From Sinomonas gamaensis (lineage in GTDB: Bacteria; Actinomycetota; Actinomycetes; Actinomycetales; Micrococcaceae): a DNA stretch of 50,030 nt. The stretch covers positions 1 to 50,030 of the forward strand of contig NZ_SSCL01000021.1 in the NCBI RefSeq assembly GCF_005876955.1, written 5' to 3'. Under the pieces are notes generated by a model. It had not been told where the DNA came from. It did not search any database and saw only the letters and a list, made by a program, of their open reading frames with translations. How positions within the stretch are numbered: the stretch's first letter is position 1; the number at the start of each line of letters is the position of its first letter. This document shows, piece by piece, positions 277 through 17,830 of the stretch. A program made the position numbers and the translations under genes.

Positions 277-318
277 GGTGCCCGGTGACCATCATTGGGC
301 CCTGGCCCGGTCCGCACC

Positions 319-2130: not shown

Positions 2131-2232
2131 GTCCTATTCACCCCTAGGGATTGCGGGATTCTCCGATAGGACGAATTCTGGGACAGTCCACCGATATTTC
2201 ACGTGCACTCCACGAAGTGTCCCAATAGGGGT
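2131..2232. promoter_or_regulatory. Nested inverted repeats upstream of the resolvase (candidate res site or operator)
   Basis: Three inverted repeats lie directly before the resolvase start: GTCCTAT (2131-2137) with ATAGGAC (2166-2172); ACCCCTA (2140-2146) with TAGGGGT (2226-2232); and GGGACA (2180-2185) with TGTCCC (2218-2223). Resolvase genes commonly sit next to their multi-subsite recombination site, which also serves as operator. Spacing does not match the Tn3 res layout exactly, so this is a candidate only. Confidence 0.35.
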
Positions 2233-2302
2233 TCCCCTCTTGGACGGTGTCCGACAGCCACTTCGGACGGCTTTGCGGGGCACCCTGGCGAGGGCAGCTC
2301 GG

Positions 2303-2548: not shown

Positions 2549-2557
2549 GGTTCCTCC

Positions 2558-2920: not shown

Positions 2921-3511
2921 AGCGGACCACCCCGATCGTTTCGATGTTCACTTCGGTCGAGGTGACCTCCGCGTAGGACAGGACCGGGATCCCGGCCGGG
3001 GCGCGGGGACGAGCCGACGGAGGGCGGGGCGCAGCATCGGGGCGCACACCAGCACGGGGCTCTTGCCGGCCTGCTCGGCGGCGGCGACCGCGCGCTGAGG
3101 GAGGCCATCATCCCGTCGAGCTTGGCCTGGTCCATGACCAGCTGGGTGCCGGTCTCGGCAGGCCTGAGGTCCTGGACGAGTGACTGCTCGAGGACCGGGT
3201 CGATGGTGATGACCGTGAGCCGGTCTCCGTCCATGAAGCGGCGCACCAGATCGGGCCCGAGCGCGGCGCGGGCGGCCTCGACAAGGCCCTCCGGGTCGGT
3301 GGAAGCCTTGGCCCGGAGGGTGAGGGCCTCGTATATGCGGGTGAGGTCGTTGATCGGGACCCGCTCGGCGAGCAGGCCCTGCAGGACCCGGTGGATTTCG
3401 GCGAGGGAGAGCTGGGCGGTGGTGAGCTCCTCGACGGCGGCCCGGCTGGTGGCCTTGACGCCTTCGGTGAGGACTCGGACCTCCTCCCGGGAGAGCAGCC
3501 GGGCGTCATCG
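2898..3511 (-). pseudogene. flhA: flhA 3' remnant with two frameshifts, fused to fliM
   Basis: FlhA is the export-gate membrane protein of the flagellar secretion system; only part of its cytoplasmic C-terminal domain remains. Reading across frames gives DDARLLSREEVRVLTEGVKA, then LAEIHRVLQGLLAERVPIND, then RRFMDGDRLTVITIDP, and finally PVLSYAEVTSTEVNIETIG, the recognisable FlhA end. One-base shifts are needed near 3095 and 3005. The transmembrane half is missing. At about 3511 the sequence passes directly into fliM in another reading frame, so this is a deletion junction. Nonfunctional. Confidence 0.75.
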
Positions 3512-4134
3512 GGTTCACGGCCCCGAGCTGGGGCAGGATCGTGTCCGCGGGGATGGCGAGCGTGGCCGGGGCCGGGGTGTCTCCCACGAAAATGGTGAAG
3601 CCGATGACGACCATGAGGTCAGTGGTGGCGGCGGCCTGGGCGAACTGGGAGTTGTACTGGATGCTCTCCACCGCCCTGGTGCCGGTCATGATCCTGGCGA
3701 GGGAGTAGGCGAGGTCTTCGAGGGCGGCGTCCATCGTCTGCTTGATGAGGGCGTGCTCCATGGGGGTGAAATTGCGCTCGATGGGGCCCTTGTCCTGGTG
3801 GCCGCCGCCCATGCGCGCGACCCAGCCGAGGGCCCGCCGCGGTGGGGAATTGGAAGACCATCTTCGCCCCGATGCCCTCGAGGGCGCACAGGACCATGGA
3901 GGTGGTCCCGGGCAGGGAGGAGACGTAGTCGTCGTAGGTTTGCATGATCACCGATTCGACGGTGACGGTGGACTTGACCCGGACTTTGGCGGTGAGCTGG
4001 GTTCCCCATTGGCGGGCGAAGGGCTCGAACCCTACTTCGAGAATGCGGGAGTGCTCGCGGGCGAGGGCGGTGTGGCGGCGGAAGTCGTAGAGCTCGACCG
4101 CCTTCTGGGATGATTCGGGGGCTTTCGTGCTCAC
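3512..4134 (-). pseudogene. fliM: fliM remnant with frameshift and missing C-terminus
   Basis: FliM is the flagellar motor switch protein that receives CheY-P. The start is GTG at 4132-4134 with an AGGGGG site upstream. Recognisable pieces are VELYDFRRHTALAREHSR, FARQWGTQLTAKVRVKSTV and MQTYDDYVSSLPGTTSMVL. After a one-base shift near 3835 it continues with TPMEHALIKQTMDAALEDLA, IQYNSQFAQAAATTDLMVV and ADTILPQLGAVNP. The usual C-terminal SpoA domain is absent because the gene joins flhA at about 3511. fliN, fliO-R, flhB and most of flhA, which normally lie between, are gone. Confidence 0.75.
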
Positions 4135-4227
4135 GGCTGCTGCCCCCTGGAGGCAGGGGTGATCGGTGACCGGTTTGTCATGCCACACCATGTGTGCGGA
4201 CTACCCGAGACCTCTCACCGAAGTCAG

Positions 4228-5534
4228 TCAGGGTTCTAGCAAAACTGGTCCCTCGGGGAAGAGGGTTGGCGGGATCCACAGCTCCCGCGGGAGCCGTACT
4301 ACCTGGGTATCGGCCGGCCAGCTGTTGTTTATCCCATCGATGATGGCAAGGAAGGACCGGCGCTTCTCCATGAACTCCTGAGCTATCTGTGTCGACGACA
4401 GCGTATTGAGTTGGTTGAGCAACTGCATCCACTCCAGGTATTGGATCCCGGGAATGTCTTGCAAGAGCTTCCGAAGGCGTCCAGCGGCTGTGTGGATGAA
4501 GCGGAGGTACTCGATTAGCTCGTCGAGCGGGAGCTTCGGGTAGTCCTCCTCGGGAGTCGTCTCAAACGAACTGCTAGCAAGGTATTTGGAGGCCACAGCC
4601 CGAAGCATCACTCCAACATTGGCATCTTCGTACCAAGGAATCTTGACATCGAAACGCCTTCTGAGCGCAGCCTTGACTTCACTGGCGCCAACCGGGGTTG
4701 ACCTCAACTTTCTATGGAGTTCACGTAGCTGGTGAAGTAAGCGGTTCTGAAGTCCTTGGATTTGAAGAGCTCGGGAAACGAAATCGCCGCTGAACACTTC
4801 TGCGAATTTGGGGCGCATGCCAGAGTCCCATTGACGAAGGTCTTCAATGCCGTCCATCTCAATGTTCCACCTCGCGTCATGGACTGGGCGAGCTTCTGAC
4901 CGCAATCTGCCCAGTACAAGGCGATGAACCGCATGGTGGCCTCAGTCTCGGCTTCGCCTTCAGGATCCTTGTCATCATCCGTCAGTTCAGCGATGGCACA
5001 CGCCACTGCTGGGCAGGAGCGCTGCGAGATTTCATCGGATCTTTTGAGAAGGCGCAGTGCGTACTTGGGCGCCCCGATTGCGAGAGATAGCCTAGCTGCC
5101 ATCAAGGCCGCCACCGAGCCGACATCCTGCTCTCCGTTGGCCGAGTACTTGACGGCATTTTCGAAGTGGACCATGGCCTCGTGGCCGTTGTTAAGCGCGA
5201 GCGACGAGACAGCGGCTATTAGGTGCGGGGTCGCTCGGAATCGGTAGGCCGCTATGCTCGCTTCTGCCTCCTTCAGCGCATCGTCATACCAGAGTTGCGA
5301 GAGGGCGAGAGCGGCGTGTTGGCAGTGTTCTGCTCCGGCAGTCTCCGCAGGCCGCCTAAGGATGTCTGCGATCTCTGATGTCCTTGCACCGAGATCCTCG
5401 ATAGCGTCAACCACCGGCTGCAGATTGACTACGATCTGTTCCTTGTCGTCCTCTTCATTGAGTCGATCGAGGACGTCTAGGCCGACGTCAGTGACGAAGT
5501 CGAAAATCTGAAGAATGGTGTCGAAGTCGAGCAT
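4228..5534 (-). pseudogene. Unrecognised gene of about 435 codons broken by one frameshift
   Basis: Two overlapping minus-strand frames read as one protein. The first starts at ATG 5532-5534 (MLDFDTILQIFDFVTDVGLD) and is convincing to about residue 215 (MRFIALYWADCGQKLAQSM). The second takes over near 4880 (WNIEMDGIEDLRQWDSGM) and runs to 4228, ending PPTLFPEGPVLLEP. One base is missing or re-read at the join. No slippery heptamer was seen there, so damage is likelier than programmed shifting. The protein is helical and soluble, with a TPR-like middle (LWYDDALKEAEASIAAY). Base composition is clearly more A+T-rich than the neighbours, suggesting separate acquisition. It sits between the motB and fliM remnants, where fliL would be expected. 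No family was recognised. Confidence 0.5.
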
Positions 5535-5686
5535 GGCGCACCGCTTCCCGAATCAACCTTGCCGTTAGGGAATTACAGCGCCGAATGGAGTAATAGGCAA
5601 CGCGGAGAGGACTACGACATCGCAGACACTGTTAGTCACCCTCAGGGGCGGGGAGATCCGGGCGTCGTCGGCCGGGCCTCCCCGGT

Positions 5687-5981
5687 CTATTTGCCGGCGG
5701 CTTCGGCCTTGAGCGCCTCGGGGATGAGGGCCCGGACGGCCTCCGGCTGGTCGGAGAGCACCACGACGTCGACACGGCGGTTCTGCTCGTAGTCGGCGGC
5801 GCTGGTGCCGGTGTTCGCAGGCCGGGAGGACCCGTAGCCGGAGGCGCCGATCCGGTTCCCGGGCAGGCCGTCGCTCTCGACCATGTACCTCAGCACCTTC
5901 ACCGACCGCTTGGCGAGAGCTCCCATCCTGAGGGGTAGTTGGTGCCACGTTGGCGGCGTGGCTCTCGATGGAGACCTGCAT
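5687..5981 (-). pseudogene. motB: motB C-terminal remnant (OmpA-like domain) with frameshifts
   Basis: MotB is the stator subunit that anchors the flagellar motor to peptidoglycan through an OmpA-like domain. The intact final frame (up to 5926) reads AKRSVKVLRYMVESDGLPGN, then RIGASGYGSSRP and NRRVDVVVLSDQPEAVRALI, the typical MotB ending. Upstream pieces VSIESHAANV and NYPSGWELS are in other frames, so at least two small shifts are present. The plug and transmembrane N-terminus are missing. It is collinear with fliM, flhA, FlhF-like and csrA on the same strand, matching the canonical flagellar order. Confidence 0.7.
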
Positions 5982-6216
5982 CGCGGACCTCACCGTCGAG
6001 CAGATCGTTGTCGCAACGCTCGAGGGCTTCGCCTAGGCTCAGGGCGCGCCGAACCAGCGCAAGGCGGCAATGAGGCGAACACGGCGGGATCCGTCAGGGC
6101 AGCATGGTCTTCCCCGACTGGCGCAGCCCGAATCCTTGCCCAGGCCTCGCCCCAACCGGGAACAGCTGCAAGAATTCGGTTAGAGCCAAGCCGGCAATTT
6201 GGGAGGCATGATAAAC

Positions 6217-6408
6217 ATGGCTGGGGAGCAGAACGAGGCCCCACTCCTCCCGCGTCGTCCGGCGAGCAGCTATGACCGGCGCGTGCAGGTAGCCGCTGCT
6301 AAGGCTCGGGTGACAATCGACGCGCGGCTAGGTGTCGACACGCCGCAATGGATTCGGGAATTGGCCGAGGAGAAGCCGCAACGGCAGCCGGACGTGCAGA
6401 AACCCTAG
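6217..6408 (+). CDS. Small hypothetical protein, 63 aa
   Basis: A GGGAGG site at 6201-6206 favours the ATG at 6217-6219 (spacing 10) over in-frame ATGs at 6199 and 6208. The protein begins MAGEQNEAPLLPRRP and contains RRVQVAAAKARVTIDARLG followed by TPQWIRELAEEKP. It is charged, soluble and has no recognised domain. It is flanked by the motB remnant (opposite strand) and a lipoprotein gene 333 bp downstream. Confidence 0.4.
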   Translation: MAGEQNEAPLLPRRPASSYDRRVQVAAAKARVTIDARLGVDTPQWIRELAEEKPQRQPDVQKP

Positions 6409-6741
6409 GCGCAGCCTGCCAACTCGCCTTGGCTTAAGGCCGTCCCCGCGGCGCCCAAGGGCCCTGACTGGCAGGCGGAACCCAAATGAGATGGCTACCG
6501 CGGCAGCGCGGTCGTTGAATATGGCCGCGTGCGGATCTGGCGGACCGTCTGATATGCACTCTCGGTGCCGGCGGCGGCACTGTTAGGAGCGCCGCGGTCC
6601 TCGTAATGCATTGCGGCAAAGCAGGGAAAATTGGCGCGCCTGAGGCGTAATAAGGCGTTGGACGTGTACAGATGGAGGTCGACCCTGCGGTGCGACGGAC
6701 CGTCCGGGTCGCACACCTGTTACGCATTCCTAGGGGGAATC
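6409..6741. other. 333 bp upstream of a lipoprotein gene; one dyad seen
   Basis: No convincing gene is present. A perfect inverted repeat, GTGCGAC (6690-6696) and GTCGCAC (6708-6714), surrounds a short inner palindrome (GGACCGTCC) and lies 28 bp before the TTG start at 6742. This could be an operator or a leader hairpin for that gene. No clear -10/-35 pair was identified. Confidence 0.35.
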
Positions 6742-7539
6742 TTGAGCAAGAAGACCTTTGTAGCCGCTGCCCTGCTGGCAGTGGCGCTGTCCGGCTGTTC
6801 CTCAGCCACCCAGACCGGGGGCGGGAGCAGCACTCAGGCGCCGTCCCAGTCCGCAGCCCAGTCGGCGGCGCCGGCCGCAGAGGTGAAGCCCCTGACGATC
6901 GACGATGTCGTCGGCCAGGGCTGGCTGGCCGGGACCGCGAAGCCGCAATTCCCGGCAGGCACGCCCGGGAAGACCGACGTGGTGGCATCTGCGCCGATTG
7001 TCCCCGGCCATGGTGGAACGAGCGTGGCTATCGCGGTCAGGAACAACACCTCGAGCCCCGTCCAGAGCGTCGAGGTGACGGCCGCGGCGAAGGACGCCGG
7101 CGGGAAGATCGTAGCCTCGGGCCGCAGCCAGGTCATGAGCCCGGAGGTGATCCCCGCCGGGGGAATCGCCCTGGGCTACGTCTACTTTGCGCCGAACACG
7201 ACTATTGCCGCCGATTCGAAGCTCTCCTTCACGGTCGCGTCGAAGCCGGTGAGCGGAAAGCCGTACAACCAGGACCTGAAGGTCGACCAGGCCAGCCTCT
7301 CCGGCGAGAACATCGTCGGCCAGGCCACCAACACATCGAAGGCGACCCTCAAGTCCCCATATCCGGTAGTGGTGACCTGCTTCGACGAGAAAGGCGGACT
7401 GCTGGACAGCCAGATGAACTTCGGGAGCCCGGACGCGGACCTCGCGCCCGGCGAGAGCGTCACGTTCCAGACCGGTCTCTACGGCAAGTCCTGCCCATCG
7501 TTCCTAGTGGGCGTCTCGGGGCACATGTCGCTCTCTTAG
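6742..7539 (+). CDS. Secreted lipoprotein with FxLYD-like domains, 265 aa
   Basis: The start is TTG at 6742, supported by AGGGGGAA directly upstream. The signal peptide is SKKTFVAAALLAVALSGC, with the lipobox LSGC giving the lipidated cysteine near residue 19. A Ser/Gln/Ala-rich linker (STQAPSQSAAQSAAPAA) follows. The rest holds two similar beta-sandwich modules with text such as NNTSSPVQSVEVTAAAKDAG and VVVTCFDEKGGLLDSQM, of the kind found in FxLYD-domain proteins. It is likely anchored outside the membrane; substrate or partner unknown. A weak hairpin (about 7567-7591) follows the gene. Confidence 0.7.
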   Translation: MSKKTFVAAALLAVALSGCSSATQTGGGSSTQAPSQSAAQSAAPAAEVKPLTIDDVVGQGWLAGTAKPQFPAGTPGKTDVVASAPIVPGHGGTSVAIAVRNNTSSPVQSVEVTAAAKDAGGKIVASGRSQVMSPEVIPAGGIALGYVYFAPNTTIAADSKLSFTVASKPVSGKPYNQDLKVDQASLSGENIVGQATNTSKATLKSPYPVVVTCFDEKGGLLDSQMNFGSPDADLAPGESVTFQTGLYGKSCPSFLVGVSGHMSLS

Positions 7540-7946
7540 CGGCTGCCGGCACGACCTCGCGGAGGAGGGGCCTCATCCCTGGTGGCCTCTCCTTCGTACT
7601 TTATCTTCAGCCTAAAATCGATAGTTGGCTATCTGTATTTCCGTTTCAGGATTGACCGCTGCTGCAGCACCTGGTCGGACATGGTGATGATGCGAGCGTT
7701 GGCCCTGGAAGCCGCGCTGGGCGACGACCAGGTTCGTGAATTTCTGCCGCAGGTCCACACGTTGGACGTGCGGGAGCGATCGTTAGCTGTCGGGGCTTCA
7801 TGCCTCCTCTATGCGCCCCGCCCTCCCACGGGTGGGGGCTCCGTCATGAACGGCGCTGTTGCGCGCGCCGTCGGGCACCGGCCCGTGGCCGGTGGTACAG
7901 GAGAAGGGACCGGCCGCGCGGCCGGAGAAGAATGGGGAACCACACC
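7540..7946. other. 407 bp between two lipoprotein genes; hairpin at 7876-7894
   Basis: Immediately after the first lipoprotein an imperfect hairpin (GAGGGGCC about 7567-7574 with GGCCTCTC) may act as terminator. Near the second lipoprotein a perfect stem, CACCGGCC (7876-7883) and GGCCGGTG (7887-7894), with a CGT loop lies about 50 bp before the start. The intervening 7600-7680 stretch is richer in A+T. No supported gene was seen. Confidence 0.35.
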
Positions 7947-8507
7947 ATGCGCAAGCGCGCCATAGCGCTGTGGCTGACGCTGCCCGCCCTGCTCGCAGGG
8001 TGCGCCGGCGGCACCGCTGCCGCCCAGCCCACCGTCACCGTCACGCAGACCGTCACCGTGACGGCCACCCCGAGCCCGACGCCCACGCCGACGCCCACGC
8101 CGACCCAGTCGGGGCCGCTGCAGCTCGGCACCGCGTACAAGCTCCCCAATGGCGGGACAGTTACGGTGTTCGAGCACCGCAAGAACGTCGAGCCGCAGGA
8201 CCCGAACCAGGAGGCGATCGACATCCAGGTGTGCGTCCCGGCGGGCGGTTCCGGCGCCAATCCGACGATCAGCGACCGGTTCTGGTCCGTGCGCGATGCC
8301 GCCGGGCACAGCTACGGTGCGGCCAGCACGACGTGGCGGCATCCCGGGGCCACCCCAGGGTTCTGGCCGCCGGAGCAGCAGGTCAAATGGGGCGAATGCT
8401 ACCGGGCGTGGGTAATCATCGAAGGCTCGAAGGACACTCCGATGACGACCGCCCGCTACAACAACGACCAGTCGGGAGTGATCGTCGACTGGGCCCTTCC
8501 TCAGTAG
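7947..8507 (+). CDS. Lipoprotein with Thr-Pro repeat linker, 186 aa
   Basis: The signal peptide is MRKRAIALWLTLPALLAGC, with the lipobox LAGC near residues 16-19. Then comes a TVTVTQTVTVTATPSPTPTP linker that extends the domain away from the membrane. The C-terminal 130 residues form a beta-rich domain starting LQLGTAYKLPNGGTVTVFEH and containing two cysteines (IQVCVPAG and WGECYRAWVI) that could form a disulfide. This pattern occurs in actinobacterial extracellular DUF4352-like lipoproteins, but no specific family is claimed. An in-frame ATG at 7932 is an alternative start; 7947 gives the better signal peptide. Confidence 0.65.
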   Translation: MRKRAIALWLTLPALLAGCAGGTAAAQPTVTVTQTVTVTATPSPTPTPTPTPTQSGPLQLGTAYKLPNGGTVTVFEHRKNVEPQDPNQEAIDIQVCVPAGGSGANPTISDRFWSVRDAAGHSYGAASTTWRHPGATPGFWPPEQQVKWGECYRAWVIIEGSKDTPMTTARYNNDQSGVIVDWALPQ

Positions 8508-8615
8508 CCTTGCTGGCTGAATCAGGGTTGGATCGGCTGCTCAGCTTCGCGCTCACAGAAGGTTCTTCTCGTCGATGATGATTCCCGCGGGAACGCTCAT
8601 GAGAGAACCCCTTGG

Positions 8616-9077
8616 CTATTGGCGCATGCCGCGGGGATTCTCCGGGCCGAGGCTGGTGCGCTTGCCCTTCTCGATAGCCCTCGCAGACGCGAGCGAGGGG
8701 TAGTTCCTCCTTGGGGGGATGCCCTTCTCGGCGAGGTAGTTGTCGAAGACCTCGGGGTTGCGTAAGGCGAACCGGAGGATCCTGTGCTGGTGGCACTGTG
8801 GCGGCCTGCCGAGGTACTCCCAGGCTTGGCGGCCTGCGCGCTTCCGGCGGATCGAAAACGTGCTGAACGCGAAGATGGTCACCAAGAGCAGCACGACAAT
8901 TGCCACCGTACCCAGGATGCTGAACCAGAGTGGCATCGTCCGCGAGAGCATTGCTGCCACAGCAATGCCAAGCACGATTGCCCAGACTATGAAGAAGAGT
9001 CGGATGTACTGGTATGCGCTCTTGAGTGTCCGTGCGGCTTCGCTGCCGATCCGTGGTTCCCAGTCTTCGAAGACCAT
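8616..9077 (-). CDS. Two-helix membrane protein behind the RHS gene, 153 aa; candidate immunity protein
   Basis: The start at ATG 9075-9077 is set by a strong GGAAGGAG site; the first residues are MVFEDWEPRIGSEAARTLKS. Two membrane segments follow close together (IRLFFIVWAIVLGIAVAAML, then LWFSILGTVAIVVLLLVTIF). A basic cytoplasmic tail of about 70 residues comes next (STFSIRRKRAGRQAWEYLG, then LRNPEVFDNYLAEKGI). It starts 20 bp after the stop of the RHS/YD-repeat gene on the same strand. Polymorphic toxins are usually followed at once by their immunity gene, and the RHS C-terminus is hydrophobic, so a membrane immunity protein is a reasonable inference. The sequence itself was not matched to a known immunity family. 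Confidence 0.5.
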   Translation of the reverse strand: MVFEDWEPRIGSEAARTLKSAYQYIRLFFIVWAIVLGIAVAAMLSRTMPLWFSILGTVAIVVLLLVTIFAFSTFSIRRKRAGRQAWEYLGRPPQCHQHRILRFALRNPEVFDNYLAEKGIPPRRNYPSLASARAIEKGKRTSLGPENPRGMRQ

Positions 9078-9097
9078 GGCACTCCTTCCTTCCACTC

Positions 9098-10876
9098 TCA
9101 CGTGAGGTAGTTAACCTTCAGGCAGGAGAGCGCGTCTATGGCGAATCCTGCGGTTCCGAATATGCCGCCGCCGACGTCCCAGCCGGCTCTATTGCCTGCG
9201 GCCACCTCCTTTGGCCCGAATACTGCTTCTCCCCCCGCTTTTGCGACGGATCCGAGCCCTAGGGTCAGGAGGCCGAGGGTGAATCCGGCACAGGCGGATG
9301 TGTCCGTTTCTCCGGGTGACGCGTGGTGCCAGAGACACGCCGCGCCGTCGAGGGCTGTGCTGGCGCCTCCGGCGACCATTGCCACCGTTCCGGCTGTTTC
9401 CGCGATCGCTGCTGCACCAGCAACGCCTGCCGCGCCTAGTTCTGCGACGAGGCCTACGCCGGTCGCCGCGAGAGCAACGGCCCCAATGATGACGCCGACT
9501 GTCGCAACGACTTTCCAGGTGTCGCTTGCCCAGGTGGCCGGGTTCCACCAGTCGTCGAGCCCTGTTGGGTCGGCGCTGTTCAGCGGGTTGTTGCTGGCGT
9601 AGTCGTACATGGCCTTGGTGAGGGCGGCGAGTGGGTCGGTGCTGAGGAATTGGGCGGTTTGGGGGTCGTAGTAGCGAGCGCGGAGGTAGTAGAGGCGAGT
9701 GTCGGTGTCCTGGACCTGGCCGTTCCAGCGCAGGACGGTGTCGGCGGTGCCGGTCTTGGCCGCGAGGTTGCCGTACGCGTCGTATGTGTAGGTTGCCACG
9801 ACTGCCCCGCTGCTGTCTGTGAGGAGCCGCGTCGAGCGGCACTGGTCGTGCTGGTAGTAGAGGGCGCTTCCTGTGGCGTCAAGCTGTTCCACAGGATTGC
9901 CTGCGTCGTAGCCCACGGTCTGGCCATTGCCGTTGGTCTGGGCGGTCAGGCGGCCGAGGGAGTCGTAGGTGCTGGCGGTGGTGCCGGTGGCATCGGCCAT
10001 GGTGGCCTGCTGGTTGTGCGCTGTGTAGGTGTAGCACTCGGCGTGGGTGGTGCCGTCGGAGTAGGTGGTGCCGGTCTTGTTCCCGGCCGGGTCGTATGTG
10101 TTAGTGGCGGTCTTCCCCGCAGGGTTGGTGACACCTGTGAGGTGACCGGCCTTGTCGTAGGCGTATGTGGTGGACCGGTTGATTGGGTCCGTCGACGAGG
10201 TGATCCGGTCCAGCGGGTCGTACGCGTAGGTGGTCGTGTGGCCGTTCGCGTCGGTCGTGCTCGTGGCGTTCCCGTCCACGTCGTACGCCGTCGTGCTGAA
10301 GGTCCCATCGGAGTTGGTGACCTTGGTGGGGTGCCCGTCGGGGTCGTAGGCGGTGGTCGTGGTGTGGCTGTTGGCGTCGGTGACCGTGGTCCGCAGCCCG
10401 GTGGGGTCGTACCCGTAACTCGTGACGTGGCCCAGGGGGTCTGTGACCGCGGTGAGCCTCGAGTCGGCGTCGTAGGCGTACGAGGTGGTGTTCCCGCGCG
10501 GGGTCTTGGAGGTGAGCATCCGCCAGATCGCGTCATACGTGTAGCTAGTCGTGTCCCCGAGCGGGTCCGCAGCCGTGATGCGATCACCGGCGGCGTCATA
10601 GGTGAATTTGCTGGCGCGCCCGTCCGGATCTGTCACTGACGTCACGTCACCGGGGTGAGTGGAGTCACCGTAGCTGTAGGTGGCGATCGCGGTCTGGCTG
10701 GTACCGGTCAGGGGGGTGGACTTGGTGACCGGGTTCCCGGCCTTTGGTAGCCGTAGGTGGTAGTGACGCCGAGCGGGTCGGTGGCCGTGGCGACCTCGTT
10801 GAACGCGTTGTATACCCAGGTACTTGTGCGGTTGTTCGCGTCGGTGCTGCTGGTCTTGTTCCCGTTCTCGTCAGTA
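9098..10876 (-). pseudogene. RHS/YD-repeat protein, 3' portion, with hydrophobic C-terminal region
   Basis: Fourteen or so YD repeats (for example YAYDADSRLTAVTDPLGHVT and YTYDAYGNLAAKTG) lead into the RHS core end: RARYYDPQTAQFLSTDPL and then NNPLNSADPTGLDDWW. After DPTGL, where polymorphic toxins carry their variable tip, come about 140 residues that are strongly hydrophobic and Gly/Ala-rich (TVGVIIGAVALAATGVGLVA) and end SCLKVNYLT. The frame is continuous from 10645 to 9098. Further upstream the repeats go on (DANNRTSTWVYNAFNEVATA), but only after a one-base shift near 10744, and they stop at about 10876. The large N-terminal part and any secretion signal are missing, so as it stands this is a broken gene or a displaced C-terminal cassette. 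Confidence 0.75.
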
Positions 10877-10879
10877 GGC

Positions 10880-11081
10880 CGCCGTAGGGATCCACGGCCC
10901 GGAGGTCCGGCCTATGCCCCCGCTCGTTGCTCTCGGTCTCTTCCGGGTCCCATGCCTGAGCCCCGGCTGGGTAGACATTGGGCGCGACGTAGCGGTCGTC
11001 GTTGAACGGCTGGAACCAGTCGTCGAAGGCCATACTGGCCGCCCCGCTCATCTCCAAAGCCTGCTCCAGCGAATGCTCCAT
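10880..11081 (-). pseudogene. Unrecognised gene fragment between RHS and YqeY remnants
   Basis: A minus-strand frame starts MEHSLEQALEMSGAASMAFD and continues DWFQPFNDDRYVAPNVYPAG before meeting the RHS repeats at about 10876-10890 in a different frame. It has the look of real protein but no family was recognised, and it joins the YqeY fragment directly at its 5' side. It is most simply a leftover from successive deletions. Confidence 0.3.
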
Positions 11082-11084
11082 GGT

Positions 11085-11289
11085 CTCTGGCGGCGGTCTC
11101 ACGGCGCTTGGCCGCCTCCTTCTGAAGGAGGGACGTCAGCTGGGCGTCGTCGAGCTCGACACGGGTCTTGCCGGACTTCTCGCGCGTTTCGATCTCGCCG
11201 AGGACATTGCGGACGGTTTGGAGTTCGAGCTTCGCGCCCACGCGCATGTGCGCGACAACGTCCTGCTGCAGCTGGGCCTTGACGGGCAT
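11085..11289 (-). pseudogene. Truncated YqeY (GatB-like) gene, 5' end
   Basis: The frame starts at ATG 11287-11289 after a GAAGGAAGA site and reads MPVKAQLQQDVVAHMRVGAK, LELQTVRNVLGEIETREKSG and DDAQLTSLLQKEAAKRRETA. This is the N-terminal half of a YqeY/GatB-related domain protein (usual length about 150 aa). The C-terminal half is lost where the frame runs into unrelated sequence at about 11085. YqeY proteins share the tRNA-binding tail domain of GatB; the exact role is unclear. Confidence 0.6.
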
Positions 11290-11416
11290 GGTGGGTCTTC
11301 CTTCGATCAGGGTGCCGCCGCTGATGACGACGCCCCGGTCATGTGTGCGGAGGAAGCGGAGCCCATATGCCCCTATTGATGGCACATGAGCACTAAAAAT
11401 GCGATACCTCTTCCAT

Positions 11417-11998
11417 TCAGCTCGCTGGCGTTTGCGTCAATTCCTGCGAATGCACCTCTCGCGAGGCAACGGACAGCACCTCGTTCAATGTGTTCTCGGC
11501 ACCTTGACTCACAAGTGCTTCAAGTTTCGCTCGGGCATGCTTGACCCGGGCCGCCTCTTCGATGAGCTCCATGAATTCATCGACACCCGAACGATCAGTT
11601 CCACAACATGGGCCCGTAATGGGAAACCGTTCCTCAATGCCGAGGGCAAGGATTACATCTTTCGCGAAAAGGCACTTACTAATGTCCAGCGCAGGAGCGA
11701 GCAGGGCTTCAGTCGTGCTGAGCCCTAACCCAATGAGCAGCAGGGCAGCACTAAACGCGGTCGCGACAAGGTATGGGCCAAAGGTCAGGCTGGCTTGTTC
11801 AGCGCAGTAGTCCCACGCCTGATAGAAGCGCAGACCTCCTTGATTCCAGACGGGGTAGCCGTGGGCCAGGGCTCCACCGCAGATCACCTCCGCACTTCCG
11901 TTGGTCCGCACGATCGGCAGTGCGGCGCCTGTACTGAAGGAGATCACAATGGCAAGGAAGCCGAGAGCGCTAAGGAGTTTCCACGAATACCTGAGCAT
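11417..11998 (-). CDS. Hypothetical membrane protein, 193 aa
   Basis: The start at ATG 11996-11998 has a GAGGAGG site upstream. The first helix (LLSALGFLAIVISFSTGAAL) is followed by an external loop of about 45 residues with two cysteines (EVICGGALA and WDYCAEQ) that could pair. A second helix (PYLVATAFSAALLLIGLGLS) leads into a cytoplasmic helical tail of about 90 residues (EFMELIEEAARVKHARAKLE). Composition is lower in G+C than the chromosomal half. It is divergent from the GT51 gene. No family was recognised. Confidence 0.5.
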   Translation of the reverse strand: MLRYSWKLLSALGFLAIVISFSTGAALPIVRTNGSAEVICGGALAHGYPVWNQGGLRFYQAWDYCAEQASLTFGPYLVATAFSAALLLIGLGLSTTEALLAPALDISKCLFAKDVILALGIEERFPITGPCCGTDRSGVDEFMELIEEAARVKHARAKLEALVSQGAENTLNEVLSVASREVHSQELTQTPAS

Positions 11999-12100
11999 CT
12001 GCGCCTCCTCGAGTGCTGATGTGACCTGATGATAAGACGGCTAGGGGCGAGAAGCTAGCTCTCAATTCTTTTACCAGCCTCAGATTTGGACGGTCAATAT

Positions 12101-12116
12101 GTGACAACACTGTCAC
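12101..12116. promoter_or_regulatory. Perfect dyad between divergent genes (candidate operator)
   Basis: GTGACAacacTGTCAC is a perfect 6+4+6 inverted repeat in the 293 bp between the minus-strand membrane protein (start 11998) and the plus-strand transglycosylase (start 12292). It lies roughly 100 bp and 175 bp from these starts. The size and symmetry suit a dimeric repressor, but no cognate regulator gene is adjacent. The rest of the intergenic stretch is A+T-richer and has no other clear element. Confidence 0.4.
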
Positions 12117-12291
12117 TGGGCTACCGGACCGCCGGCTGAAATGAAGCGACTCCTTTTCAGAATTCAGCAGAGCAAACTGTCATATCGGGAAACCTCTCGA
12201 ACCATTTACTCCGGGTCGGAATCGCTCTACCGTTCACCTCACTCCCAGATACATCGCTGGGAGCGGTTTACCCTTTTCGAGGAGCCCCGCC

Positions 12292-13203
12292 ATGTCCGCT
12301 CTACCCGTCTCGGAAGAACCTCCCCAACGCCCGCCCGCCAAGGTCATTCCCCTGCGCCCGGTGGCGAGGAAACGCTATCGTCTCCACCGCTTCTTCCGTT
12401 TTCTGGTCCGGCTCTTCGTCAGCATGGCTGTCCTCAGCGTCTGCGTGACGATTCCTCTCAACTGGCTCACCCCGTCAACAACGTCGTACATGATCCAGGC
12501 CGGTGCGCCGGTCGTGCAGCAAAACGTGTCCGTCGATCACATCAGCCGGTTCCTCATCGCCGCCACGGTCGCTCACGAAGACGAGCAGCTCGGTACTCGC
12601 TTCGGCGCATTTGACTTCAACGATTTCTTCTCACGCGCCCAGGCCTACGCGACGAACCAGGCCGACCCCAGTGGCTCGACTATCCCCCAGCAACTGGCCA
12701 AGAATCTCTACCTCTGGCCGAGCCAAGACTGGGTCCGTAAGGGTGTCGAAGCGGTGCTGGCCGAGGAGCTGGACTTCGGGCTGCCCAAGAAGCGGATCGT
12801 GGAGCTGTACCTCAATTACGCGCAGTTCGGCCCAAAGCTCTTCGGAGTGTGCGGGGCGACCTGGTACTACTTCAACACGCCACCGTCGGCAGTGACCCAA
12901 TACCAAGCCGCTCAGCTCATGGGAGTCTTGCCAGATCCCGAGAACGTGAGGCGGGCCGCAAACGGCGGCCTCGATCTCAGTTCTGCCGCGGATAAGACGG
13001 CGGTGGATCTCATCAACGGTGCCGCGAACGTGTGGGTGCCGCGCCAGCTTGCCGGTATGGGTGGCTGGCAAATGGCCGTCGCGACGATTGGCATCACCGA
13101 CACGGCGTCGATGCACGCAGACACGCAGAATGCCGCCGACGCCTGCTCGACCATGCCGCAAGCCGTAGCCGACCGGCTGAAGGCCGAGGGCGCTATCAAG
13201 TAG
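12292..13203 (+). CDS. Monofunctional peptidoglycan glycosyltransferase (GT51), 303 aa
   Basis: GT51 enzymes polymerise lipid II into glycan strands at the outer face of the membrane. A cytoplasmic basic N-terminus (RPVARKRYRLHRFFRFLV) precedes one membrane helix (RLFVSMAVLSVCVTIPLNWL). Family motifs follow: AATVAHEDEQLGTRFGAFDF (motif 1 with the catalytic Glu), GSTIPQQLAKNLYL (motif 2), RKGVEAVLAEELDFGLPKKR (motif 3) and IVELYLNYAQFG (motif 4). There is no transpeptidase domain, so it resembles MtgA rather than a class A PBP. A 60-residue C-terminal extension is unrecognised. A location inside mobile DNA is unusual for a cell-wall synthase. Confidence 0.8.
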   Translation: MSALPVSEEPPQRPPAKVIPLRPVARKRYRLHRFFRFLVRLFVSMAVLSVCVTIPLNWLTPSTTSYMIQAGAPVVQQNVSVDHISRFLIAATVAHEDEQLGTRFGAFDFNDFFSRAQAYATNQADPSGSTIPQQLAKNLYLWPSQDWVRKGVEAVLAEELDFGLPKKRIVELYLNYAQFGPKLFGVCGATWYYFNTPPSAVTQYQAAQLMGVLPDPENVRRAANGGLDLSSAADKTAVDLINGAANVWVPRQLAGMGGWQMAVATIGITDTASMHADTQNAADACSTMPQAVADRLKAEGAIK

Positions 13204-13217
13204 CTTCCCCCAAGGAC

Positions 13218-13253
13218 GGAGAGGGTCGTGCAGTAGCGGGTGCGGCCCTCTCC
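13218..13253. terminator. Hairpin between converging genes (candidate bidirectional terminator)
   Basis: GGAGAGGG (13218-13225) pairs perfectly with CCCTCTCC (13246-13253) across a 20 nt loop. It lies 14 bp after the GT51 stop and 10 bp before the end of the converging small gene. There is no U-tract, so termination strength is uncertain. Confidence 0.4.
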
Positions 13254-13263
13254 TTCGGGCCAT

Positions 13264-13470
13264 TTAGCCTTTGAGCTTGTCCCAGTGGTACGTCGCGAGC
13301 GCCTCGTCAATCGTGGAGCAACCGTTGCCGAAGCCGCGCCGCGTCGGATCGCTCTCGACCCAGGCATCAATGGTGTAGCGGTAGTTGCCATCTGTCAGGC
13401 GGTCGTAAATACAGACAGTGATCACTTCACCACGGAGGTAACCGCTGTACTGGCCAATCAGCTTGGCCAC
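13264..13470 (-). CDS. Small hypothetical protein, at least 68 aa
   Basis: The frame reads LIGQYSGYLRGEVITVCIYD, then GNYRYTIDAWVESDPTRRGF and STIDEALATYHWDKLKG. GTG at 13468-13470 is the only usable start found, but GAGGAG lies directly against it, too close to serve. The same frame stays open and protein-like for over 150 bp upstream (SGSIIESITRHSGAEEVAKL), so the real gene may begin further right or may have lost its start. No domain was recognised. Confidence 0.4.
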   Translation of the reverse strand: MAKLIGQYSGYLRGEVITVCIYDRLTDGNYRYTIDAWVESDPTRRGFGNGCSTIDEALATYHWDKLKG

Positions 13471-13896
13471 CTCCTCAGCACCGCTGTGGCGCGTGATGCT
13501 CTCGATGATTGATCCGCTTCCATCTCCCCCGGTGATCCGGACCGCCGACGACCCGCTAGACCCTGACGACTCCTTAGAAGCCGTCCTCCATCTCCAAGTT
13601 GCGTTGACTGCGGCTACGGCCGCCTGGACGCGTTGAGCAGATGGCGAGCGAGGCGCTGGGCTCGCGACCCTCGATTGCCATTGACGGAGCTACCTATTGG
13701 GCAATCAGGGCATCCGGAACGTAACGTGACTCCCCTGCCCCTTGGCACGGGCGTCGGTGAAAGGTCAGATGGGTCCTGTGGCCGTCCTCGCCTTGCGGGC
13801 CCACCCAGCGGAGAGTGGCAGTTCGCGCTCTTGTCGCTAGCTTTGGTCTGCTCCGCTGCACACGGCCGTCACGGGCTAGGACGCATAGAAGCTGGC
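13471..13896. other. 426 bp without a confident gene
   Basis: The minus-strand frame of the small gene at 13264 stays open through much of this stretch (to about 13690) without an ATG, GTG or TTG in frame, which suggests a decayed 5' end. On the plus strand the sequence leading to 13897 is open but lacks coding character. No promoter or repeat was identified. Confidence 0.3.
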
Positions 13897-14061
13897 GTGA
13901 AGCATTCCGATAAAGCTCCAGAGAACCCGCAGTCCCGGCCACTGGGAATAGACGAGTACGTCGAACGGCTCATGGCTTCAGCCCCGCCTCTCACGAATGG
14001 GCAAGCGACGCTCATAGCGAGGTTGTTCTCAGAAGGGATCGGCGAGAAGGAGACGGCATGA
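13897..14061 (+). CDS. Small hypothetical protein near the integrase, 54 aa
   Basis: The coding-like part begins at GTG 13897 (VKHSDKAPENPQSRPLGIDE) and ends with YVERLMASAPPLTNGQATLI and ARLFSEGIGEKETA. The 'APPLT..Q...IARL' pattern occurs in short proteins encoded close to integrases in actinobacterial mobile elements, from my knowledge of such loci; function unknown. The ribosome binding site is weak (AGAAGC), so the start is uncertain. An upstream extension of the frame to 13633 looks noncoding. Confidence 0.45.
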   Translation: MKHSDKAPENPQSRPLGIDEYVERLMASAPPLTNGQATLIARLFSEGIGEKETA

Positions 14062-14412
14062 TCGAGTGCGCAGCCGGTCAGACCTTTGGGCGGTCGTCGT
14101 CGGGGCGAGGAGGGCCTCGTATGCATTTCATGACTGTCGCCGGTGGCCGCGCGCCTTCGCGGACCCTTTGAGGGCTGCGCCCGCGAGGCACGGTCCTGGG
14201 ATTGCTCGACGCAGACCTCGGAGAGGCGCGGCGCACGACACGCCAAGAATGGCGGGAGAAGGCACGGGGATCGTGGACGCCGCCTTGGAGGTCCTCGCCT
14301 ACGACAACCTCTACGCGAGGCGATGACTGCCCAGGTCACCTGCGGGCAACGCCAGCTAGACTCAGGCAGCCCTGGCCTTCAGGCTCGCGGACCGTCTCGC
14401 ATGACGGCCTAG
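14062..14412. other. 350 bp with possible gene debris
   Basis: On the plus strand, about 14185-14326, a frame reading TVLGLLDADLGEARRTTRQE passes after a shift into GTGIVDAALEVLAYDNLYAR and a stop. It looks like the worn end of a gene, but no family was recognised and there is no start. The rest shows nothing clear. Confidence 0.25.
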
Positions 14413-14545
14413 CCTTTCAGGTTCTTTTTCATCACCTTCGCATCCTCGAAGTGGTCGGTATTGACCTGCCCGTCGATCTTCTCGGCCGTGGGACTCGTAC
14501 TCGTAGCCCTGCCTGCCGTCGGCGGTCGCCTTTCCAATGATCTCG
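14413..14545 (-). pseudogene. Possible C-terminal remnant of a small gene
   Basis: The minus strand reads IIGKATADGRQGYEYESHG and, after a one-base shift, EKIDGQVNTDHFEDAKVMKK then NLKG and a stop near 14411. The two halves fit together as one protein end. No start and no known family. It lies 110 bp downstream of the integrase gene on the same strand. Confidence 0.3.
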
Positions 14546-14656
14546 ACTGCTCAGGTCCTGACGATGCGCCGTGAAATCAGTAGGGCAAGGTGGACAACCG
14601 GCACGGCCTGCTATGCATGTCGGGCGGCCTTAGTCAGACCTCCGCGAAGTTCAGCC

Positions 14657-16024
14657 CTATTCGGTGCGCCACTCAATGATGATCGACTGGGGATCGAAGC
14701 GTACGCCTTTCGCACGCGCCGGCATGACCCGCACCTGCACCAGAGAACGAATGATCTCGCGTTGGTCACGGAGCGGGAGATCATCCCACTGAGCCGCGGT
14801 TTCCCCTGGGTTGGGGATCGTTATCCGGCGCGGCGTCCGCAGAGCCCTCAGCTTCTGACGGGCGGCGTCTAGTTTAGCCAGCACCGATTTCTCGACCTGA
14901 GCTAATCCCGCCGGGCTCAACGAGCCGTCAGCTGCCTGCTCATAGAGGCCCGCTAGCCGCGATTCAAGCGCAGCGACCTCACCTGCGGCGCCGCTCACGT
15001 CCGGTGCTGCATGAGCGTGGATAGCTTCCAGCGCGTCGGACTTCGACAGGCGGGCTTTCAAGACGGCGACCACGAGTTCGTCAGTTTTTGGTTGCGAGCG
15101 TGCAACACAGTAGTTTTCGCGACAGATGTAGGTTGGGTATTTCCCACGATTAACCAACCGAACGACATGCTCGTCGCAGACACCGCATCGTGCGATTCCG
15201 GTCAGCAGATGGGCAGGCTCACTGCCGTGAAACTTTCCCCTCTTGGGATCTGAGAGGATCCCTTGAAGAACGTCCCACTTCTCGGGATCTATTAGAGCAG
15301 GCCATGTGGCCTCGCCAATCACCGCACCGCGATAGACGCGCTTGCCGGCATAGGTTGGGGAACGAAGCAAGCGAGCTATCTGCAAGGGGGTCATCGAAGT
15401 GTGACCACGTGCCCGATAGTCCTTGCTGATTGAATAGATTGATTCGCCCGTGATCACGCGGTTTGCAGCTTCAGTGATGAGCGGGCCCCGCTCAGGATCA
15501 GGGACCTGCCGGAGTAAGGAACCAGACGAAGGGTCGTATTCCCTCAGGTATCCGTAGGGCAGCCGGCCATGAGGTTTGCCAGCTTGGGCGAGCCTTCGGA
15601 CCTCGCGTTGGACCCGGTCGGACACCTGGCCCGACTCGCGCTCGGCGACGATCAGATCAAGAGCCGTTGAGAACGCGTCATCTACTCGCGAGAAATCGTA
15701 GAGGCGGCCGCTGTAGCACCATTGGACCCCGGCTTCTCGACACGCGGCTCTCATCCGTATGTATACCGCGAGATCACGCGTTGCTCGAGACGCTTCCCAA
15801 GTTACGATTACATCGAACTGCGTCAGGTCTCCCAGCAGCCGCTCGAACTCTGGCCGCCCCTTCCGGGCGTACCGCGAAGCGGAACGGTCGTTATCGCTGT
15901 AGGTCGAGGTGACGTCCCACCCATTTCGCGCACAGAGCGCGCGGCACTCGGCTTCTTGCGATGTGACGGAGCGCGACTGGCCGGACCTGTCGCGTGAAAC
16001 TCGAGTGTAAATGGCTGCGCGCAC
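14657..16024 (-). CDS. Large serine integrase, 455 aa
   Basis: Large serine recombinases integrate phages and islands between attP and attB by double-strand cleavage and subunit rotation. The catalytic domain starts MRAAIYTRVSRDRSGQSRSV with the nucleophile Ser10, and continues with IVTWEASRATRDLAVYIRM. The recombinase domain (LPYGYLREYDPSSGSL to YAGKRVYRGAVIGEATWPAL) is followed by a zinc ribbon (ARCGVCDEHV with YICRENYCVA) and a coiled-coil arm (GEVAALESRLAGLYEQAADG). The start is GTG 16022-16024. Length is normal and no damage is visible. It lies 23 bp from the broken end of comEC, as expected for an integrase gene flanking its own att site. Confidence 0.9.
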   Translation of the reverse strand: MRAAIYTRVSRDRSGQSRSVTSQEAECRALCARNGWDVTSTYSDNDRSASRYARKGRPEFERLLGDLTQFDVIVTWEASRATRDLAVYIRMRAACREAGVQWCYSGRLYDFSRVDDAFSTALDLIVAERESGQVSDRVQREVRRLAQAGKPHGRLPYGYLREYDPSSGSLLRQVPDPERGPLITEAANRVITGESIYSISKDYRARGHTSMTPLQIARLLRSPTYAGKRVYRGAVIGEATWPALIDPEKWDVLQGILSDPKRGKFHGSEPAHLLTGIARCGVCDEHVVRLVNRGKYPTYICRENYCVARSQPKTDELVVAVLKARLSKSDALEAIHAHAAPDVSGAAGEVAALESRLAGLYEQAADGSLSPAGLAQVEKSVLAKLDAARQKLRALRTPRRITIPNPGETAAQWDDLPLRDQREIIRSLVQVRVMPARAKGVRFDPQSIIIEWRTE

Positions 16025-16031
16025 TCTAATA

Positions 16032-16037
16032 AGTATA
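16032..16037 (-). promoter_or_regulatory. Candidate -10 element for a leaderless integrase transcript
   Basis: TATACT on the minus strand ends 7 nt before the integrase GTG, and no ribosome binding site is present in between. A transcript would start at or next to the GTG. Leaderless mRNAs are common in Actinobacteria. The matching -35 region would fall in or beside the comEC junction, but no good -35 was found. Confidence 0.45.
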
Positions 16038-16046
16038 GGCCAAACA

Positions 16047-17027
16047 TCACTTCGCCCCGCTGACCGCCGTGAGGTGGCTCAGTCCGGCGGCCCGAAGGTC
16101 CGCTTCGAGCTGAGGGTCGAGGACGCTCCGGTCTCCCACGGCGAGGGCGGGAAGCAGGCCGGCGGCATCCGGAGGCAGGCCCGAGGCCTGAGTCCTCAGG
16201 GCTTCGCGCAGGGCGGCTGTCGGATACGACTGCGGCGAACTGCCGGTCCGTTTGGGGGTACCCCTCAGCGAGACGAATCCGGTGCCGTCGGAGCGACCGC
16301 CCTCGACGCGCGCCGGGGCCTCGACAAGGTCCCCTCGGCGAAGACCATTCAGGGCGACTCCCACGACCACGACCCGAGCCGACCCAGTGAATCGCAGGCC
16401 CATGCGGGTGCCGGCAACGAGTCGAGCATCGGCGATGTATCGAGGTGCCGAGGAATACGGTCCACCCGATTGCTGGCGGCGTGGTTCACCGAGCAGTTCC
16501 AACACCACCTGGGCGTCTCCTCCCTCTGCGAGGAGCCGACCCGCCGGGCCAGCTGTGTCGTGCGCGAGCCGTGCCGCACCTGCCCCGAAACCTCCAGCCC
16601 ACGCGAGGGCGGCGACGACGACCGCGAGCTTGACCGCCCTCAGGCGCAACAGCGCCGCGGCGAGCAGGCCGCCCCCAAGAACGCCTCCGGCCCACCCGGC
16701 GACGGACGGAAGGGCCAGGCCCGCTGCCGGCCCGATGACTGCCCAGGCGGCGCCGGCCCAGACGGCGACGGCGACTGGCAGGAGGCGTAGGTCACGCCAG
16801 CCGAGAAAGCTCTCGGCAGAGGCGGATGAGTCCTGGGCGCCCGCCCTCGCCCACTCCCGCACCGCCTGTCCCGCGCGCTCAGCCGCCGTCCGCCAGCGGG
16901 GCACGGGAGTGGATTGCTCGGCTTCCCCGAGCTCCTCCCCCGCCGCTGAACGCCCAGCGCCCAGCGTTGCTGACTCGACATAACGCGCCCAGTTCTCCGA
17001 AGCGGGTTCTCCCATTCGCCGCCTCAC
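16047..17027 (-). pseudogene. comEC: comEC 5' fragment interrupted by the integrated element
   Basis: ComEC forms the inner-membrane channel for DNA uptake. This 326-codon piece holds the N-terminal membrane helices (LRLLPVAVAVWAGAAWAVIG) and the soluble OB-like region (VVVVGVALNGLRRGDLVEAP). It ends in the start of the conserved channel domain, LRAAGLSHLTAVSGAK, then TGA. Normal ComEC continues SGAN-V and several hundred residues more; here the native sequence stops after GCGAA and integrase-linked DNA begins. The gene starts at GTG 17027, overlapping comEA by 4 nt. The 3' half is not in the window. Transformation is presumably abolished unless the element excises. Confidence 0.85.
16048..16070. 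other. Attachment-site junction (att) inside comEC
   Basis: The comEC coding sequence for HLTAVSGA ends here (GTCAGCGGGGCGAA on the minus strand), and sequence belonging to the integrase end begins. The recombination crossover of a large serine integrase should be a dinucleotide within this GC-rich core. The second junction was searched for by eye in positions 1-14,657 and not found, so it lies outside the window. Confidence 0.6.
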
Positions 17028-17830
17028 TTCACGACCACCAGTGGAAGCAGGGACTCGAGCATCTTTGCGCCGACTCCTGGAACGGCATCGAGGTCCTCAG
17101 GCGAGGCGAAGCGACCGTGCTGTTGCCGGTACTCCACGATGCGCTGGGCGAGGACGGGACCGACGCGTGGGAGGCCCGCAAGTTCCTCCGCGCTGGCGCT
17201 GTTCAGGTTGACCTTGCCACGCGATGATGCGGTCCCGCCAGAACTGCTCGCCGGAGCCGAGGGAGACGTCTCGACCGCGTCGCCCGGACGCGGGACGAGG
17301 ACTCTGATGCCGTCCTCGAGCGGCGCCGCCAAATTCAGCCGATGAAGGTCAGCCTCGGGAATCGCACCGCCAGCTGCACCGATGGCGTCATGGATCCTGC
17401 TGCCGTTCGGCAGGCGATAGACCCCGGGCGACACCACGGCACCGGCAACATGAACCACGAGGACGGGACCGCCGTCGCCCGCAGCCCCGCTCGGCTGTCC
17501 GCCGCTGGCCTCTCCCCCGCTGCTCGATGGACGGGGGCCGGGAGCGTCGACCGGCTGGACCTTCGGAGGGGACGAAATGGTGGACCACCACCAGAGGCCG
17601 CTCGCGGCACAGAGAACGCAGACCACAACGGCAGCGACAGCCGAGGAAAGCCCGAAGCGAGGTCGTGAGCGGATGCGCTCGACGCCATCGTCCGCATTTT
17701 CGCCGCCGGGCCCGTCCAAGAGTCCTGCCATCCCTCCCTCGACGGGGCGGCCCTCGCTGCCGAGAACGTCGGTGAAGTGCTCCCAGCGGTGACGGGCCGC
17801 AAGGGATCCTGTGCGCGCTCGTCGTCCCAT
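17024..17830 (-). CDS. comEA: ComEA-type DNA-binding competence protein, 268 aa
   Basis: ComEA captures double-stranded DNA at the cell surface and passes it to ComEC. A cytoplasmic N-terminus of about 60 residues precedes one membrane helix (LSSAVAAVVVCVLCAASGLW). A Pro/Ser/Gly linker, an SLBB domain (VVHVAGAVVSPGVYRLPNG) and a C-terminal double helix-hairpin-helix (KVNLNSASAEELAGLPRVGP, then SPEDLDAVPGVGAKMLESL) follow. It appears intact and its stop overlaps the broken comEC start. An internal ATG at residue 34 is an alternative start. Confidence 0.88.
   Translation of the reverse strand: MGRRARTGSLAARHRWEHFTDVLGSEGRPVEGGMAGLLDGPGGENADDGVERIRSRPRFGLSSAVAAVVVCVLCAASGLWWWSTISSPPKVQPVDAPGPRPSSSGGEASGGQPSGAAGDGGPVLVVHVAGAVVSPGVYRLPNGSRIHDAIGAAGGAIPEADLHRLNLAAPLEDGIRVLVPRPGDAVETSPSAPASSSGGTASSRGKVNLNSASAEELAGLPRVGPVLAQRIVEYRQQHGRFASPEDLDAVPGVGAKMLESLLPLVVVK

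Follow-up and report, generated by a model that had tools for sequence, protein, structure and literature searches.

Streptococcus pyogenes provides a published case of mobile elements housed within comEC: the prophages phi1207.3 (Tn1207.3) and phi10394.4 lie inside the gene (PMC4260502, PMC4288039). In the published account of the phi1207.3 type, as far as the parts consulted extend, the target dinucleotide is GA, and two adjacent recombinase genes stand at one end of the element, with a third at the other (PMC4260502). At comYC, comM, comFA and comK, related integrases are described as keeping one orthologous position across genera, and it has been argued that insertion into competence genes blocks the curing of elements by transformation (PMC4774983, PMC12637031). 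The sections consulted also name comEC insertion for pneumococcal transposons (PMC12637031), list a prophage of Variovorax paradoxus VAI-C in a ComEC/Rec2 gene (PMC9658991) and mention a Piscirickettsia comEC with transposable elements (PMC12955456). Deletion of comEC is reported to abolish transformation in Micrococcus luteus (PMC4322843).

Here we describe an element that interrupts comEC in Sinomonas gamaensis. Micrococcus luteus belongs to the same family as this host. Like the streptococcal prophages, as they are described in the parts seen, the Sinomonas insert lies in comEC and encodes a serine recombinase. The two differ in that S. pyogenes, a member of the Firmicutes, has the GA dinucleotide and tandem recombinases, whereas the actinobacterial element has a single integrase of 455 amino acids and a predicted crossover at the GG of the glycine codon in a V-S-G motif; neither the GA core nor the tandem serine recombinases of the phi1207.3 type are found at attL in Sinomonas. 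This comparison is with the published description, and does not imply that the streptococcal site coincides with the V-S-G codon. With Variovorax paradoxus VAI-C, as listed, the likeness is that of a prophage within comEC. That prophage has a tyrosine integrase, a different core and a proteobacterial host. The covered parts of the papers on comYC, comM, comFA and comK hold no actinobacterial case, while Sinomonas offers an actinobacterial comEC. Listeria prophages in comK are said to act as a regulated excision switch of a competence gene; a preliminary description of the present DNA had drawn this parallel, and the class of event fits, but the comEC insertions of S. pyogenes are nearer. In the literature that we searched (open-licence papers, mainly titles and the beginnings of abstracts) we found no report of comEC insertion by a serine integrase in Actinobacteria. 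Novelty is in the actinobacterial integrase lineage, the exact site and the breadth of the phenomenon, while comEC insertion and the anti-competence idea were already known; the actinobacterial case is broader and better defined than the published comEC insertions that we found.

Our reading of the locus, to which as a whole we give a probability of roughly 0.88, is that an integrative element entered comEC by recombination between its attP and an attB in the gene, at the GG of the V-S-G codon. The reaction would have been catalysed by the element's own large serine integrase, which belongs with a set of integrases of actinobacterial phages and their derivatives that use this same codon in about ten genera. 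ComEC is thereby truncated, and DNA uptake would be lost.

The interrupted comEC gene of Sinomonas gamaensis

The window, that is, the whole stretch of DNA analysed (50,030 nucleotides), is an entire contig (C14) of a genome assembled in 35 contigs. Its relevant features are as follows.

1..16056, no strand assigned: left part of the insert; its presumed continuation, beyond an assembly gap of unknown size, is positions 1-81542 of contig C12
14657..16024, minus strand: large serine integrase, 455 amino acids, intact, co-directional with comEC
16027..16056, minus strand: right attP arm (element side of attL), an imperfect inverted repeat of the left arm on C12
16047..17027, minus strand: comEC 5' portion, 326 codons, open frame ending ...SHLTAVSGAK-stop
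16051..16062, minus strand: attL core, 12 bp, CAGCGGGGCGAA, also at the comEC 3' junction (C12:81543)
17024..17830, minus strand: comEA-like gene directly upstream of comEC, with SLBB and helix-hairpin-helix domains

The preliminary description had comEC intact as far as HLTAVSGA and followed at once by a large serine integrase, and this is confirmed (17027-16047 and 16024-14657, both on the minus strand, with 22 bp between the comEC stop and the integrase start). The codons for SGA are followed by AAG TGA, in which the TGA is supplied by the right attP arm of the element, and the match of the window's comEC to the Competence domain (PF03772) is confined to profile positions 1-35. A comEA-like homologue adjoins comEC in all nine of the relatives' comEC loci compared. 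A tRNA or tmRNA at the junction was also considered, but the window contains none.

The integrase has the domains expected of a large serine integrase: its Pfam matches to Resolvase (3e-20) and Recombinase (1.4e-7) are both above cut-off, and a zinc ribbon match (3.4e-4) is under the curated one. Ser10 of the motif YTRVS, invariant in a three-sequence alignment (A1), is what we take to be the catalytic serine. No other large serine recombinase gene adjoins it at attL.

The 3' half of comEC and the host flanks

A profile search of the genome with PF03772 returned exactly two matches, the one in the window (1-35) and another at C12:81544-82251 (profile positions 29-267). The second half of comEC had been predicted to lie to the left of the window and to start with NVA; it does exist, but it starts with NFA and lies on another contig. 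A search of both strands found the core CAGCGGGGCGAA at a single place in the window and at a single place in C12:1-100000; the two junctions, attL and attR, which the preliminary description had asked to define, have this 12-bp sequence in common. To the right of the comEC 3' half, and separated from it by about 12 kb of extra genes, contig C12 carries holA (DNA polymerase III delta), rpsT (ribosomal S20) and lepA at 94.6-98.2 kb (Pfam names). A holA homologue is within about 1 kb of comEC in six of nine relatives compared; the distance is 7.5 kb in G010 and 17 kb in G013, and in G007 holA is on another contig. Because the 3' half is followed by holA, rpsT and lepA, as in relatives, this side of C12 is ordinary chromosome. 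The two host flanks of comEC form one reading frame, hence loss of the element would leave the gene open. Gene decay, according to the preliminary description, would be betrayed by the lack of any comEC 3' half near the element, or by the same truncated comEC without integrase in relatives; the half was found at C12:81543, and in all 14 same-genus genomes the comEC match lies in an open frame of 608-959 amino acids, so that none of them is cut at the V-S-G codon.

Crossover codon and symmetry of attP

Twelve genomes with both junctions were aligned in the comEC reading frame. The GG of the glycine codon falls within the common run in 12/12 pairs and makes up the whole contiguous run in four; in one of these four, G408, a longer identical run exists one base further right, and sequence identity alone therefore does not fix its crossover point. 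A thirteenth pair, from G479, agrees with GG. Since the register was located by a script with patterns that contain GG, this agreement is partly by construction, and it is the symmetry of the arms that makes an independent test. When the left arm is compared with the complement of the right arm, 187 of 360 positions match at register 0 over the 12 pairs, against 22-30% at 14 other registers, and none of 5000 letter shuffles reaches 187. Single pairs match at 12 to 20 of 30 arm positions, the Sinomonas pair at 14/30. Inverted repeats centred on GG at register 0 only are the geometry expected of the attP of a serine integrase. Judged from these alignments, crossover probably takes place at the GG that forms the first two bases of the glycine codon in the V-S-G motif of ComEC, which would be positions 16057-16058 in the window.

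comEC insertions in other actinobacteria

A family scan found an integrase match at 1e-30 in 64 of 395 genomes, and among the best 30 loci, checked for an adjoining comEC, the gene was beside the integrase in two, the Sinomonas locus itself and L048 of G374, an Arthrobacter. In G374 comEC is split (PF03772) by an insert of 8.4 kb with an integrase 66% identical to that of the window; in G082 it is also split (PF03772), with an insert of 82.8 kb in which the integrase (51% identical) sits 9.7 kb inside, away from the junction. A one-genome-per-species scan gave 156 integrase relatives, of which 80 were kept and the best 28 (L081-L108) tested with PF03772: comEC was split or present as a 3' piece only in 13 (G405, one of them, is the same strain as G374), unsplit in 14 (among them G414, with a TGA within the matched stretch) and without match in one, a Dietzia. 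The V-S-G codon is cut in 11 of the 13, G419 being seen from the 3' side only. In Williamsia deligens (G417) the integrase first found (L093) abuts another gene, and a second one (L237) is at comEC. Arthrobacter sp. 9V (G406) and Paenarthrobacter LG01 (G407) are cut about seven codons upstream, with the integrase reversed beside the 3' half and the 5' half some 40 kb away; both junctions were read for G406 only.

Within Gordonia, four of 59 genomes tested are split at the V-S-G codon (G413, G415, G479 and G468). In G468 both comEC halves are at contig ends with no element seen, and we left it out of the total. The other Gordonia genomes with an anomaly comprise one frame break (G450), one cut at a contig end and one unsplit comEC accompanied by a second 3' half. 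The search of relatives' comEC loci advocated in the preliminary description has thus yielded homologous integrases in comEC of other genomes, with a split at the V-S-G codon in 13 further actinobacteria (G374, G082, G408, G410, G412, G413, G415, G416, G417, G419, G421, G431 and G479). The total, window genome included, is 14 genomes with an insertion at this codon and two with a shifted cut, spread over about ten genera; except for the Gordonia figure, these counts are lower bounds from targeted searches, not prevalences. Measured inserts besides that of Sinomonas range from 8.4 to 82.8 kb, and genes for phage capsid or tail proteins occur in some of them.

Site-specific integration by a large serine integrase at a conserved comEC codon is supported by the common core, the arm symmetry and the recurrence of the codon in these 13 further genomes. 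The same three lines of evidence lead us to reject simple decay, in which comEC would have broken otherwise and the integrase would be a chance neighbour; comEC can break without insertion, as the frame break of G450 illustrates, and the Sinomonas island is a patchwork, yet a symmetric site used at one codon in many genomes makes decay highly improbable.

As a separate observation, a Micromonospora maritima contig of 18,324 bp (L241) has at its beginning an attP-like junction, in which the left arm, GG and the integrase arm follow one another; towards the other end the same left arm, differing by one base, is joined to comEC as in attR. This contig could represent an excised circle or tandem copies.

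Phage members of the integrase group

Some of the inserts have a phage character. The 46-kb insert of Gordonia sp. ABSL11-1 (G413) matches tail genes of Gordonia phages (for the best record, 70% identity over 29% of an 8-kb piece). The 8.4-kb insert of G374 codes for an excisionase-like protein just downstream of the integrase, a major capsid protein, a tape measure protein and repressor-like proteins, a set that falls short of a complete phage. MT835531, a phage record of metagenomic origin, includes a comEC 3' half, from PF03772 position 29, beside a reversed integrase, and the viral contig L161 has a comEC 5' half (recognized by eye).

Free phages also belong here. Wocket, CarolAnn, Blueberry and KappaFarmDelta, labelled Jujuvirus in their records, are cultured Gordonia phages with a homologous serine integrase, 42-44% identical to that of the window; they differ from the Sinomonas island in being free and temperate. 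CarolAnn and Blueberry are placed in cluster CV in the part of a phage survey that we saw, according to which the attP of serine-integrase Gordonia phages could not be predicted by bioinformatics (PMC5559632). In all four, the GG of AGC[GG] is the best symmetry centre within 110 bp upstream of the integrase (in L247 the stretch ahead of position 6001, and the corresponding stretch of L254-L256), with 12-13 of 20 positions matching and 9 at the second-best centre. Wocket and KappaFarmDelta do not differ in this stretch, and the four phages thus amount to three independent sequences. TinyDot, outside the clade, has no such centre, its best being 10/20 at TG. By this symmetry we predict that comEC is the attB of these Gordonia phages. 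Predictions of attP and attB would then be available for phages that the survey called unpredictable, and the new pairs of integrase and att, aimed at a conserved site, would be usable as integration tools.

Extent and cargo of the Sinomonas insert

The insert consists of C12:1-81542 and window 1-16056, which together come to 97.6 kb; an assembly gap of unknown size between them makes this a minimum. Its junctions being on different contigs, it is not assembled end to end, and there may have been rearrangement within it. The sequence GGGGTCAAAATTCA is present at both contig starts (positions 76 and 101 of the window, 81 of C12), which is consistent with assembly breaks at a repeat.

In C12:1-81.6k, Pfam families among 35 of 93 ORF picks include MFS transporters, an aldehyde dehydrogenase, a lactonase, two IS21-type pairs, SelB, AIRS and 4Fe-4S proteins, a resolvase and sigma factors. 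In window 1-16024, 14 of 23 picks (Pfam and/or PHROGs) yield RHS repeats, a transglycosylase, csrA, a FliM fragment, a small resolvase, the integrase and a sub-threshold OmpA-type fragment. No phage structural gene, conjugation family or excisionase was recognized among these 35/93 picks of C12 (Pfam; three also with PHROGs) and 14/23 of the window. PHROGs gave the window picks weak matches only, the nearest being one to an Rz-like spanin (E 0.0046), and the island pieces hold no homologue, at E 0.1, of the G374 excisionase. The GC content of C12:1-81542 (0.683) is within the chromosomal range (0.673-0.689), and that of window 1-16056 is lower (0.642).

With its IS21 copies, metabolic cargo and flagellar fragments, the Sinomonas island looks old and patchwork. 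A rather probable account is that the region between the comEC halves is an originally integrated phage or island later enlarged by IS-driven accretion, or by rearrangement of chromosomal DNA. The transporters, the dehydrogenase and the two IS21 pairs speak for it, as do the chromosomal GC of the C12 portion next to the lower value of the window, the flagellar fragments in the window, and a selenocysteine/formate-dehydrogenase-type operon with tRNA-Sec that sits elsewhere in relatives; we found nothing decisive against it. Accretion is compatible with the integrase-driven entry that we favour, and is probably true for the Sinomonas host. A plasmid origin was rejected, all 49 plasmid records with an integrase match being less than 60% identical. 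We also rejected a rearranged chromosome in place of an insertion: a DNA search of C12:22-81.5k against 14 same-genus genomes gave scattered matches among those listed, with no common locus at comEC, a rejection that the assembly gap limits.

Three details of the island may be recorded. The operon just mentioned spans C12:22001-29535 (L006:1-7535), with tRNA-Sec at L006:4271-4365, and is found in 7/14 same-genus genomes at 82-90% identity, not at comEC. Window 2303-5926 brings together csrA, the FliM fragment, the sub-threshold OmpA-type fragment (MotB-like by eye) and a frame that by eye resembles FlhF but matches no Pfam family, apparently flagellar gene debris. A 1.3-kb stretch with a resolvase gene is present in both island portions, at window 909-2183 and C12:67799-69072, with 90% identity.

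Integrase phylogeny and choice of target

In a tree of 41 integrases, 14 of those at comEC form one group, whose support of 87/86 is short of the starred level. A second group (100/99) takes in three more, along with Wocket and with L103, whose genome has an unsplit comEC. The comEC label requires three changes on this tree, against a shuffled mean of 13.3, with 0/500 shuffles as low, a contrast to which close relatives contribute. Sister branches abut other genes: an NlpC/P60 gene (L090 by Pfam; L085, L093, L099, L100 and L102 by eye; for L090, L093, L099 and L102 it is the gene upstream of position 10001), an amino-acid permease (L087 by Pfam, L094 by eye) and, for L164 (upstream of position 291), ssb by Pfam. 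Since sister integrases abut ssb and NlpC/P60-like genes, it seems that integrases of this group commonly switch to other conserved genes as targets.

These sister integrases, together with the 14/28 best relatives whose comEC is unsplit, mean that competence as such need not be the selected target. It is quite conceivable, if a little short of an even chance, that comEC is merely a stable, conserved and dispensable attB, the loss of competence being a side effect without benefit to the element; the use of NlpC/P60, permease and ssb genes as neighbours by other branches is in keeping with this. Against it stand the clustering of comEC use in the tree over about ten genera, and the repeated hits on competence genes by unrelated integrases in other phyla, as described in the parts consulted of PMC4774983 and PMC12637031. 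On the published theory, a block to the uptake of DNA would shield the element against curing by transformation. As relatives of the integrase split comEC in other actinobacteria, it is probable that natural DNA uptake is shut down wherever a member of the family has inserted.

One may go further and imagine that a single glycine codon of comEC is a phylum-wide actinobacterial attB for two related integrase lineages, which settled there because a broken channel stops curing by transformation, the damage being reversible in intact phages and transformation therefore intermittently off across Actinobacteria. We regard this extension as doubtful. If the insertions do abolish DNA uptake, they would explain why certain strains cannot be transformed although their actinobacterial groups are transformable, and they would offer a tractable way of testing whether mobile elements disarm transformation in order to escape curing.

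Consequences for DNA uptake

In the integration that we favour, ComEC is cut after 35 of the 270 positions of the Competence domain, and transformation should be abolished, to judge from comEC knock-outs elsewhere. In the comEA-comEC direction the integrase gene now comes next, and it may be transcribed from that operon. An excision event would give back an exact comEC; the Sinomonas island, for its part, looks degraded.

Precise restoration raises the thought of a regulated switch, by analogy with Listeria comK, in which conditional excision would restore comEC and permit DNA uptake. The PF03772-matched stretches of split genomes have no stop, except the 5' matches of Sinomonas and G408, which run past the crossover; open halves, though, are equally expected from recent insertions. 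The excisionase-like gene of G374 would suit a switch, but no excisionase was recognized among the scanned ORFs of the Sinomonas island, and the G374 gene has no homologue in its pieces. The Micromonospora maritima contig, with attP-like junction and attR, would suit excision too, but could be a tandem copy, given its one mismatch. Altogether we find such a switch unlikely. With an island of old and patchwork appearance, in which neither excisionase nor structural gene was recognized among the scanned ORFs, a live switch is less to be expected in Sinomonas than in members of prophage type, for example Gordonia sp. ABSL11-1.

Other disruptions near comEC

Two loci show further disturbance of the region. 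In a Gordonia genome (L250, G471:C72:116501-126500) an unsplit comEC is followed first by a truncated holA and then, after about 2 kb of other DNA, by another comEC 3' half, which has its start at the V-S-G codon and runs on into a complete holA frame; this looks like a past insertion repaired by recombination, with a scar left. In G007, a genome of the same genus as the host (L043, G007:C12:1-5000), a partial second comEC 3' fragment lies beside holA, with a longer comEC on another contig, another disruption of comEC and holA whose start is not at the V-S-G codon.
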